From: Chloroflexota bacterium | GTDB taxonomy: Bacteria > Chloroflexota > Dehalococcoidia > JABGRK01 | DNA: 64,000 nucleotides | Direction of reading: 5' to 3' | NCBI GenBank assembly: GCA_018648325.1 | Contig: JABGRK010000012.1 | Coordinates: 102,549-166,548 of the forward strand | Shown: positions 8,169 to 12,263 of the stretch, in pieces | Position numbering within the stretch: position 1 is the stretch's first letter | How the letters are laid out: each line of letters opens with the position of its first letter | Position numbers and translations under genes: made by a program | Notes under the pieces: generated by a model | What the model was told of the DNA's origin: nothing | Database searches by the model: none | Seen by the model: only the letters and a program-made list of their open reading frames with translations

Positions 8169-8196
8169 TAGACAAATTAGCAGATATGTGTATAAT
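8169..8196 (+). promoter_or_regulatory. Candidate sigma70 promoter for exosortase cassette
   Basis: TAGACA - 16 nt - TATAAT. Confidence 0.4.
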
Positions 8197-8231
8197 AAGC
8201 ATCAAACTGGCTTTAGTATCAAGGAATTGTT

Positions 8232-9698
8232 ATACGTAAGTTTGCTGATAGCAGAATAGTTATAATAACATTACTGATCAGTGTTATGGTCATGCTGTTT
8301 CCGGTAGCTGCAAATGCTGATGAAGTACTAAGAACAGCGGTTTCAGGAGAAACCGTTACAGATGGAGTGGCAGTTTCAGATGATAGTGTCTGGGAAAATG
8401 CCATAACTACCAGTACTTTGAACCTTGGGAGTAACACCAGTGATGTACAATCAGTATTGGTAGTAGCTTCTTTTGAGTGTACAACAGTTGGGTCATATGC
8501 CACTGATGCCCAGTATAAAATAGTTAATAGCGCCGATTCTAATGTGAGTCAAACACTGCAACGAGGACTAGCTGCTTCAAAAACAAACGATTATGGCATT
8601 GGTTCACTGGTGCATATTTTTGATGTGAGTTCATTATCAGGGAATCTTACTTATACGCTTCAACATTTGTCGACAGATAATCGTAGACTGGTTACCACTA
8701 CTGGTACTATAGTCGCCATTCCCCTTTCTACTACTGCAGGTACTCCGGAACATCTCGATAATGCCTGTGCGAGTGTTACTGGAAGCGACCAGATGCAGGT
8801 GAGTACATGGGAGGATGTGCCAAGTAGTACGGTCACAGGTGTCACCTTATCGGTAGCAGGGCACCTTTATGTTGCTGCATCAATTGAGAGTGGACAAACC
8901 GGACCTAACAGTACAAATACGGGCGAGTGGAAGATAATGTACAGGCAAGGCGCGGGTGATTGGACTGATCTGGGTTATTCGATGACTCGATCAACAGGTA
9001 CTTCCACCGATTCAGGATTGGTCAGTTTAGTTGCTGTTAAGTTGAATCAAGATGCCGCCGATTATTCTTTTAAGCTTCAACACAGGCAAACAGTGCAGGG
9101 ACATGTCAGTGCCTATTCTTTAACCAACAATTTCGAGGTTGTGGCTGTTGCCTTGGCTGATAGCAATCAATACTTCACCGCTTTTGAAGGATATACGGCA
9201 AGTCCATCAGGCATAACCAGCAGTGATATAACTGCTAATTCAGCCACAACTGCTAATATTACGCCTTATGTAGCAACTCCAATATTCGTACACGCTCAAT
9301 ATAATATGACTTCCAATGATAGTAGTGCCGTTAATACCGCAAAATACGATTTATGTGTTGATCAATCTACACCAGCAGGCCCAGTTGAATTGGACTCGAG
9401 AGAGCAGGATCGATACATAACAGATGATGCTGATTCAGGTAGTGGTGCGTCAGTCGGTTTGTCTTCGAGCCTAAGTGCTGCTACTGAGTATACGGCAAGT
9501 TTGCGGCATGCCTCGGATGGAACAAACACATTGGTGACTTCAAATGCATACATTGTGGGATTCACATTAGGCTATGCTACCGCGCAGCCTCCAGTACCAG
9601 AATGGCCTACTATGGCTCTGGTGTCTATCGGAATACTGGCGATTATATTGTACTATTGTGCCAAAAATCGTCGATTAATCAAAACAGTTGCGGATTAG
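8232..9698 (+). CDS. Secreted S/T-rich protein with three internal repeats and C-terminal VPEWP-type exosortase sorting signal
   Basis: Frame opens after TAG 8214. From ATA 8232 it reads MRKFADSRIVIITLLISVMVMLFPVAANA-DEV, a good signal peptide. C-terminus PPVPEWPTMALVSIGILAIILYYCAKNRR. The ORF track starts at internal ATG 8286. Confidence 0.75.
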   Translation: MRKFADSRIVIITLLISVMVMLFPVAANADEVLRTAVSGETVTDGVAVSDDSVWENAITTSTLNLGSNTSDVQSVLVVASFECTTVGSYATDAQYKIVNSADSNVSQTLQRGLAASKTNDYGIGSLVHIFDVSSLSGNLTYTLQHLSTDNRRLVTTTGTIVAIPLSTTAGTPEHLDNACASVTGSDQMQVSTWEDVPSSTVTGVTLSVAGHLYVAASIESGQTGPNSTNTGEWKIMYRQGAGDWTDLGYSMTRSTGTSTDSGLVSLVAVKLNQDAADYSFKLQHRQTVQGHVSAYSLTNNFEVVAVALADSNQYFTAFEGYTASPSGITSSDITANSATTANITPYVATPIFVHAQYNMTSNDSSAVNTAKYDLCVDQSTPAGPVELDSREQDRYITDDADSGSGASVGLSSSLSAATEYTASLRHASDGTNTLVTSNAYIVGFTLGYATAQPPVPEWPTMALVSIGILAIILYYCAKNRRLIKTVAD

Positions 9699-9758
9699 TC
9701 AAGCTTCTATAGTATCTCTATAGAGGTATATTCATTAAACGATGGATGGAGGGAATGA

Positions 9759-10592
9759 ATAATCAAAAAGCAAAATATTATTATTTCCCTTGCTTTATTT
9801 GTAGCATTAATAATCTACATTCCTACATTCATATGGTTAACTAATAATTGGATTAATAATCCCTATTACAGCCATGGATTTATTGTACCCATTGTGTCCG
9901 GTTCTGTTTTTTGGATAAGGCGTAATAGGCTGGTTTTAGGGAAGCCTTCATTAAATGGATATATTATTATTGGTGTGGGCTTAACAGTTTATTTGTTATC
10001 CTATATATGGAAAATGGAATATATTACTGCGTTATCCTTCCCACTAGTGTTATTCGGAACAATAACTGTTATATGCGGGAAGGCTAATGCACGGGCCTTT
10101 TTATTTCCCATATTGTTTATGTTTTTAATGATACCCTTGCCCTTGGTTTCAACAGTTAGTTCCTCCTTGCAGGTTGTAGCCACTCATTCATCAGCATGGA
10201 TAACTGGTTTGGTCTTAAGCGACGTAGTAACCAGTGGAAATCAAATTTATCTTCCTAATGCCAGCTTCACTGTTGGTACTGCTTGTAGCGGCATACACAG
10301 CGTAATAGCATTGCTGACTGTCTCCGCTGTTCTTGTCTTTCTGGAAAGTGGTCCCGCATGGAAAAAGTCTACAATATTCCTATCTGCTATTCCCGTGGCA
10401 ATTATCACGAATATTCTGAGGATTGTATCTGTGCTTCTTATAGCGAGCTGGTGGAATCCTGAAGTAGCAATTAACTATTTTCATGGAATCTCTGGGATAT
10501 TGTCATATGCGTTTGCTATTATCATATTTATAACACTTGCTAAATTACTTCAATGTAGGTTTAGAACGTGGGCAGAAATAAAAAATGATTGA
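9759..10592 (+). CDS. Exosortase/archaeosortase family protein
   Basis: Catalytic-type Cys 'GTACSGIHS', Arg 'NILRIVSV' and His 'YFHGISG'. The same frame upstream of track start 9894 encodes 'FIWLTNNWINNPYYSHGFIVP', the exosortase N-terminal signature. No ATG/GTG/TTG in this frame after stop 9756-9758. Confidence 0.85.
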   Translation: MIKKQNIIISLALFVALIIYIPTFIWLTNNWINNPYYSHGFIVPIVSGSVFWIRRNRLVLGKPSLNGYIIIGVGLTVYLLSYIWKMEYITALSFPLVLFGTITVICGKANARAFLFPILFMFLMIPLPLVSTVSSSLQVVATHSSAWITGLVLSDVVTSGNQIYLPNASFTVGTACSGIHSVIALLTVSAVLVFLESGPAWKKSTIFLSAIPVAIITNILRIVSVLLIASWWNPEVAINYFHGISGILSYAFAIIIFITLAKLLQCRFRTWAEIKND

Positions 10593-11460
10593 ATATAAAC
10601 AGTATGCTCCATTGCTTGGTCTGTTTATGCTAGCGATATTGTTTGTATTTCTATTATCAACACCAGATGATTTTACTAGTCGCCAAATGCATTTTAGTAC
10701 TCAATTACATAGCGGAACAGCAAGCGATGTACGCGTTAATGCAAGCTTGGAATTAGGCGATGACGTGCAACTGCAAAGTTTCCCCTATGAACTATCCGAT
10801 TTTATTGGATTTGATCAATCCATAGGGTCATTAAAGGAAACCTTGGGTGCGGATTCTATACTTTTCAGAGGGTACACTAATGAAGAGTCATCTCAGCTTA
10901 TATTCCTTCTAATAGTGCAAAGTAAGAGCAGTTTAAGTTTCCATTCACCACGTGGTTGTTACCAAGCTCTTGGGTACGAAATAGAAGAAGAGTCGGAAGA
11001 AATAATCCACGTTGCTGATCCATCGTGGACGCCAACACATCTTATAAATTACGAAGCTCTACCGGACTGGGCAAAACAAGAATTAGCCGTGTCGCCATAT
11101 GGAGGCTATTTACCAGTTAATAAAATCGTAGTATCCAAAATTGAAGGAGTAGAAATTAAGGAGCGGAGGGTAGCCCTCTACTTTTACATCAAGAGATGGC
11201 CAAGCAGTGATACGATCGATATGATCCGGGTATCAATGGTGGTACCTACATCAGGTGAATATGAAGAGTCGTTGAATGTTGCCAGAGAATTCATGGGTTA
11301 TACAGTGCCTCTTATACTTGAACCTTATGATGGGGGGGATGAACAGATATTGATTTTATCAATATTATCCTGGGGAGTAGGTGGATATTTTCTTATTATT
11401 TTGTTGTTATCTATTTGTTTATCTTTAGTTGCATTCCCCAAACTATTTAAAAAGAAATGA
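10585..11460 (+). CDS. EpsI-like exosortase-associated protein with C-terminal TM segment
   Basis: 'LIFLLIVQSKSSLSFHSPRGCYQALGYEIEEES' resembles the EpsI 'HSPxxC' region; 8-nt overlap with exosortase ORF. Confidence 0.75.
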   Translation: MIEYKQYAPLLGLFMLAILFVFLLSTPDDFTSRQMHFSTQLHSGTASDVRVNASLELGDDVQLQSFPYELSDFIGFDQSIGSLKETLGADSILFRGYTNEESSQLIFLLIVQSKSSLSFHSPRGCYQALGYEIEEESEEIIHVADPSWTPTHLINYEALPDWAKQELAVSPYGGYLPVNKIVVSKIEGVEIKERRVALYFYIKRWPSSDTIDMIRVSMVVPTSGEYEESLNVAREFMGYTVPLILEPYDGGDEQILILSILSWGVGGYFLIILLLSICLSLVAFPKLFKKK

Positions 11461-11498
11461 TAAATAGTGCCAAATAACTGGAGGCTCGTTACATAGGA

Positions 11499-12263
11499 AT
11501 GGATAAAGATCTTAAATCATTGTTGCCATTGTTGGCATATCTCTTAGCTATAATTACAGCAGAGTTACTTACTATATTAATCAATCCCTTTTGGGGAGTA
11601 TTGTGCAATATTGTACTGTTATTCGTAATTATTATTCATTCTTCAAGATCACTGACCAGTGCTCCAAATCAACTAATAGCATCACTTGCTTTAGTCCCAC
11701 TAATAAGGATTATCAGTTTATCCATTCCACTCGCTAGTATCTCACAACTTTGGCAATTCGCTATTATCTATATGCCATTACTGTTGGTCACAATCGTTGT
11801 TGCTCGCATATTGAATATAAGTGTAAAGCAACTTGGTATAAGTATAAGATTCAGTTGGCTACAGATAGTAATAGTATTATCTGGGCTTATTATCGGGGCA
11901 GTTGAGTATATAATATTGAAACCTGATCCTCTATTAACTGATTATTCCTGGGATAAAGTATTATCTTATTCAATTATTTTTATTGCCTGTCCTGGTTTTA
12001 TAGAGGAGTTAATCTTTCGTGGAGTATTACAGCATACGGCAGCTATGACTTTAAGACGTTGGGGAATTGTCTATGTTAGCATAATATTCGCTATTCTTCA
12101 TTTAGGTTTCCTTTCTTGGGTTTTTGTATTTTTTGTATTTTTTGTTTCACTATATTTAGGCTGGATGGCAAAAAAAACAGGATCACTATTTGGAGTGATC
12201 CTCGCACATGGTTTAGCTAATATTATATTGTTTATAGTTATGCCTGTTTTATTAATACAATGA
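11499..12263 (+). CDS. CPBP (CAAX/Abi) family intramembrane metalloprotease
   Basis: 'PGFIEELIFRGVLQH' (EExxxR), 'FAILHLGF', 'VILAHGLANIILF'; multiple TM segments. Confidence 0.85.
   Translation: MDKDLKSLLPLLAYLLAIITAELLTILINPFWGVLCNIVLLFVIIIHSSRSLTSAPNQLIASLALVPLIRIISLSIPLASISQLWQFAIIYMPLLLVTIVVARILNISVKQLGISIRFSWLQIVIVLSGLIIGAVEYIILKPDPLLTDYSWDKVLSYSIIFIACPGFIEELIFRGVLQHTAAMTLRRWGIVYVSIIFAILHLGFLSWVFVFFVFFVSLYLGWMAKKTGSLFGVILAHGLANIILFIVMPVLLIQ

Follow-up and report, generated by a model that had tools for sequence, protein, structure and literature searches.

Two adjacent genes in a genome of the class Dehalococcoidia (Chloroflexota), for an exosortase and its probable substrate, are in our judgement probably intact and translated weakly from AUA codons, at positions 8232 and 9759 of the window (the whole stretch of 64,000 nucleotides that we analysed), with IF3 expected to discriminate against both. 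The case is built on the anatomy of the two start regions, on the homology observed at the start column of the exosortase, and on AUA and AUU starts observed in other genes of the lineage. The host genome is a 2.0-Mb assembly of 19 contigs, and the two genes open a cluster of four (Table 1), all of whose reading frames are open, with no stop or frameshift.

Table 1. Coordinates of the features discussed (window positions unless a contig is given; SD, Shine-Dalgarno)
Feature	Position	Strand	Remarks
Four-gene cluster	8169-12263	+	Probable exosortase substrate, exosortase, EpsI-like protein, CPBP protease
Promoter-like site TAGACA-16-TATAAT	8169..8196	+	11/12 match to sigma-70 consensus; consensus match only
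SD core AAGGA, substrate gene	8221..8225	+	6-nt spacer to ATA 8232
Probable exosortase substrate	8232..9698	+	488 aa if read from ATA 8232; putative signal peptide MRKFADSRIVIITLLISVMVMLFPVAANA; C-terminus PPVPEWPTM-transmembrane-KNRR
Substrate-exosortase intergenic hairpin, directly after substrate stop	9703..9727	+	10 pairs; z -2.2; single-sequence prediction
Predicted hairpin in which early coding sequence pairs with SD (GAGGGAA) and AUA region (AAUAAU)	9741..9799	+	-14.6 kcal/mol; z -2.4
SD core GGAGG, exosortase gene	9748..9752	+	6-nt spacer to ATA 9759
Exosortase	9759..10592	+	277 aa from ATA 9759; PF09721 E 1.5e-53; TIGR02602 E 4.7e-37
EpsI/DUF3485-like protein	10585..11460	+	NF045608 E 4.5e-6; PF11984 E 1.2e-4, below cut-off
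CPBP/Rce1-like intramembrane protease	11499..12263	+	PF02517 E 5.9e-17
Host rplU	G000:C12:79068-79370	-	Loci L188, L216; relatives L210-L232

Start regions of the substrate and the exosortase

The original prediction held that neither frame offers an ATG, GTG or TTG at the point where translation has to begin, and that each gene has instead an SD core followed, after 6 nt, by ATA (AAGGA before ATA 8232, GGAGG before ATA 9759). Both points are confirmed in the sequence. After TAG 8214-8216 the substrate frame reads TAT CAA GGA ATT GTT ATA(8232) CGT AAG, and its earliest canonical codons are ATG 8286 and ATG 8292. Judged by eye, the signal peptide is complete only with a start at ATA 8232. Translation from ATG 8286, ahead of which no SD is visible, bears out the expectation that the basic n-region and part of the signal peptide would be removed: the basic end and much of the core are lost. 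The promoter-like site places the expected transcription start near 8203, with ATA 8232 about 30 nt downstream. A leader open reading frame from ATG 8187 that overlaps ATA 8232 was considered and rejected, as its ATG lies upstream of the predicted transcript start. The cost of opening the substrate ribosome-binding site is average relative to SD-led genes.

No homologue of the substrate was found in searches that included 393 genomes of the class and viral contigs, and the protein matches no NCBIfam or Pfam family. Its C-terminus (VPEWPTM-helix-KNRR), however, resembles a tail, PIPELPT..GFKRYRK, that adjoins the orthologous exosortase in another locus (L041). A start at ATA 8232 is the best reading for the substrate, placed by signal-peptide, promoter and SD anatomy without orthologues.

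The exosortase scores above the curated cut-offs of both general models (TIGR02602, 127.8 bits versus 105.55; PF09721, 182.2 versus 25.7), and below the cut-off of every model for a named subtype (XrtA, XrtW, XrtD and others). As seen from the alignment with Dehalococcoidia homologues, the catalytic-type Cys176, Arg221 and His242 are kept and invariant, and indeed every residue invariant among these relatives is present. Following TGA 9756-9758 the frame reads ATA(9759) ATC AAA AAG, and the earliest canonical codon is GTG 9894. Initiation there would cost the first transmembrane helix and nine residues that do not vary in the Dehalococcoidia alignment. Among them is YSHGF, in agreement with the earlier remark that a conserved exosortase motif is encoded upstream of 9894.

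All 80 of the exosortase homologues that were fetched have a canonical start codon close to the column of ATA 9759. In one Dehalococcoidia orthologue (L004) a TTG occupies the identical column, 22 residues before TFIW and after GGAGAGG. The best reading is thus that ATA 9759 is the start of the exosortase, its column being fixed by orthologues. The comparison of 5′ ends with orthologues, which had been proposed as a check, therefore succeeded for the exosortase and failed for the substrate, for which no homologue was found. The proposal that both genes initiate at ATA stands as the best reading, on the orthologue column in one case and on promoter, SD and signal peptide in the other, with the reservation that ATC 9762, one codon after ATA 9759 and 9 nt from GGAGG, is also within SD range.

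Opening the exosortase ribosome-binding site was predicted to cost 10.7 kcal/mol, which ranks it in the highest 3.3% among 209 SD-led genes (single-sequence prediction), and the predicted hairpin over the SD and AUA would probably throttle the exosortase further. The hairpin directly after the substrate stop could possibly act as an attenuator of transcription into the exosortase gene, or as a stabiliser of the transcript. An Rfam search gave no credible match to a riboswitch or other element. The EpsI-like gene, whose ATG start overlaps the exosortase stop, is on this arrangement taken to be translationally coupled to the exosortase. We also noted that the SD of the CPBP gene, fourth in the cluster (GGAGG 11480-11484), lies 8 nt from an in-frame ATA 11493 and 14 nt from ATG 11499; initiation of this gene may occur partly at the ATA.

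The exosortase has a GC content of 0.37 (0.33 at third codon positions, GC3) against genome medians of 0.48 and 0.51, the cluster being AT-rich and atypical. The genus and order are represented by one further genome, that of the sister (G001), and it lacks the exosortase. Among the genomes searched the operon was found in one only, and no close relative carries it. The AT-richness of the cluster and its absence from the sister suggest acquisition or loss.

Chance expectation and near-cognate starts elsewhere in the class

At this composition, a run of 45 codons without ATG, GTG or TTG has a probability of about 0.07, and a run of 18 codons one of about 0.33. The length of the canonical-free runs is thus only mildly unusual, and the case rests on homology and the SD. 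An SD match of at least 5 bases at suitable spacing precedes about 3% of random codons. Our genome-wide scans covered 0.8 Mb of sampled stretches, with 615 sampled genes, in which 22 of 710 ATA codons near starts (3.1%) had an SD, versus a background of 3.1% and a value of 23% for ATG. General use of ATA starts in this genome was rejected, as an SD is no commoner at near-start ATA codons than in the background; an adjacent pair of ATA starts, each with an SD, is thus not typical of the genome. Non-canonical starts make up about 1% of the sampled genes (infC, rplU, rdgB, gatA and probably tsaE). That two such starts should adjoin by chance is improbable for any one pair, but across a whole genome it would be no great surprise. 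The earlier view that the arrangement is hard to explain by chance is, accordingly, moderately true: the adjacent SD-led pair is atypical, but non-canonical starts at about 1% of genes soften the argument.

A coding-potential scan for hidden N-termini picked out tsaE and the frameshift gene prfB; the AT-rich codons of the exosortase operon kept its own score below the calling level. Most matches from an ortholog-extension search were antisense shadow frames and were discarded.

Near-cognate starts recur in housekeeping genes of the lineage. In 17 of 19 genomes of the class, including the host and its sister, infC (loci L148-L168; host copy L151) begins with ATA, always at the same column; the remaining two have ATT or ATC. 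The gene for ribosomal protein L21, rplU, starts with ATT or ATC, mostly behind an SD of the GGAGG type, in 11 of 23 genomes, among them the host, the sister G001 and the single-contig genome G014. A pattern search found such rplU starts in 24 of 54 Dehalococcoidia, while 346 other Chloroflexota gave none. Contig 1 of genomes with a completeness rating of 99-100% holds several of these matches; G014 consists of one contig of 1.52 Mb. In rdgB, the host (L259) and the sister (L261) share an ATA start that overlaps the apparent end of the preceding gene, and gatA starts with CTG in the host (L235) and in G018 (L242), behind AGGAG or AGGAGAGG. For tsaE we restrict the claim to the absence of a canonical start: the host gene (L118) has no ATG, GTG or TTG across about its first 70 codons, and the sister (L119) has ATG where the host has ACT. 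A tsaE start at ATC was rejected, because its apparent conservation stems from overlapping thiL codons and the sister has ATG. Separately, a transporter-like gene at L102:15213 has an apparent ATT start after GGAAGG.

AUA and AUU starts are already known elsewhere, AUA for example in S. aureus and Listeria. In the open-access literature we found no report of rplU with an AUU start or of start codons in Dehalococcoidia, an absence that is not proof of novelty.

Competing explanations

The main rival to weak translation from AUA is recent attenuation or silencing, in which both starts were originally ATG, turned into ATA in this strain through drift or selection for switch-off, and have no regulatory role. 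The operon is AT-rich and atypical, like acquired DNA, and has no close relatives, hence no conservation of the ATA codons; selected ATG-to-ATA start mutations are, moreover, documented in Listeria rsbW (PMC13068326). Set against this, none of the four genes has acquired a stop or frameshift, the SD cores and their spacings are intact, the invariant residues of the exosortase are kept, and AUA and AUU starts are tolerated in housekeeping genes of the lineage. We consider attenuation unlikely, if still worth serious thought, and the paired loss of function that had been offered as one meaning of the ATA codons is not favoured, given the four open frames and the preserved exosortase residues.

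An assembly or sequencing error seems very improbable, whether as substitutions at both starts or as a one-base indel masking ATG 9755. Although deleting one A near 9765 would put this ATG in the exosortase frame, it would sit just 2 nt from GGAGG 9748-9752, and 125 protein matches across 0.8 Mb revealed no more than one plausible change of frame; both points speak against ATG 9755 as a true start hidden by an indel. An error at both genes would, in addition, take two independent events, GATC is not depleted, contrary to a methylation-linked miscall, and near-cognate starts recur across independent genomes. Since the same lineage uses AUA and AUU starts in housekeeping genes, the AUA starts are probably real and weak rather than errors.

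We give very little credence to shortened proteins made from ATG 8286/8292 and GTG 9894. These are the first canonical codons of their frames, but no SD was seen ahead of 8286, within 20 codons of GTG 9894 no canonical codon has an SD run longer than 2 bases, and the end of the signal peptide and the conserved exosortase N-terminus would be lost. Use of another near-cognate codon, such as ATC 9762 in the exosortase or ATT 8226 in the substrate, is just as hard to credit: the class does have ATC and ATT starts, and ATC 9762 is 9 nt from GGAGG, but ATT 8226 directly adjoins its SD, the spacing is better for ATA in both genes, and the column of ATA 9759 is that of the TTG in the L004 orthologue.

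A model for the module and its relation to known systems

In the reading that we prefer, weak translation of both genes from AUA, each AUA 6 nt past its SD core would be decoded as formyl-methionine by the initiator tRNA. As a weak start discriminated against by IF3, it would limit both proteins to part of what AUG would give. For the substrate gene, a strong promoter-like site would be combined with an open ribosome-binding site; the exosortase would be restrained further by the hairpin covering its SD and AUA, and, with EpsI coupled to the exosortase, the output of the module would be much substrate and little enzyme. Low expression of both genes is expected by analogy with published reporters, AUA starts having given about 10-30% of AUG output in S. 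aureus (PMC13009471) and lowered output in Listeria (PMC13068326). IF3 is known to repress the non-canonical start (GTC) of Streptomyces sigR (PMC5472188). Because infC has an AUA start of its own class-wide, IF3 sensitivity of the two genes is plausible. More broadly, though we think it unlikely, Dehalococcoidia might have an IF3-tuned set of near-cognate starts (infC AUA, rplU AUU, rdgB AUA, gatA CUG, and the exosortase and substrate), in which initiation fidelity would jointly set the output of ribosome assembly and surface protein sorting.

Gene callers recognise ATG, GTG and TTG as starts; they would shorten both proteins or overlook them, with loss of the first helix of the exosortase and the signal peptide of the substrate. 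If AUA is truly used, the pair would be an unusual example of initiation limiting two adjacent members of the same pathway. Clade-wide AUU starts of rplU and AUA starts of infC would make Dehalococcoidia, several of them represented by single-contig genomes, a good whole-genome testbed for near-cognate starts and IF3.

The cluster shares with exosortase/PEP-CTERM systems (PF09721, TIGR02602) the exosortase, an EpsI-like partner and an adjacent protein whose C-terminus carries a putative P-E motif, followed by a transmembrane segment and a basic end; it differs in its start codons, in a substrate with no curated family match and in the extra terminal CPBP protease. Streptomyces sigR (PMC5472188) likewise has a non-canonical start on an operon gene that sets protein ratios, as we infer here; its codon, however, is GTC and not AUA, and its control by IF3 has been demonstrated, where ours would be an extension. 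In the Listeria monocytogenes rsbW variants (PMC13068326) ATG-to-ATA changes lower but do not abolish translation, in one gene and from laboratory selection. A further parallel is with the AUA starts of S. aureus infC, ccpN and citZ (PMC13009471), which similarly stand behind a strong SD, extended in S. aureus versus 5-base cores here. The S. aureus starts were established by ribosome profiling and reporters, in contrast to two adjacent exosortase-module genes read here from sequence alone. Output is reduced in S. aureus, as it would be in the present genes, and an AUA start of infC is common to both lineages.
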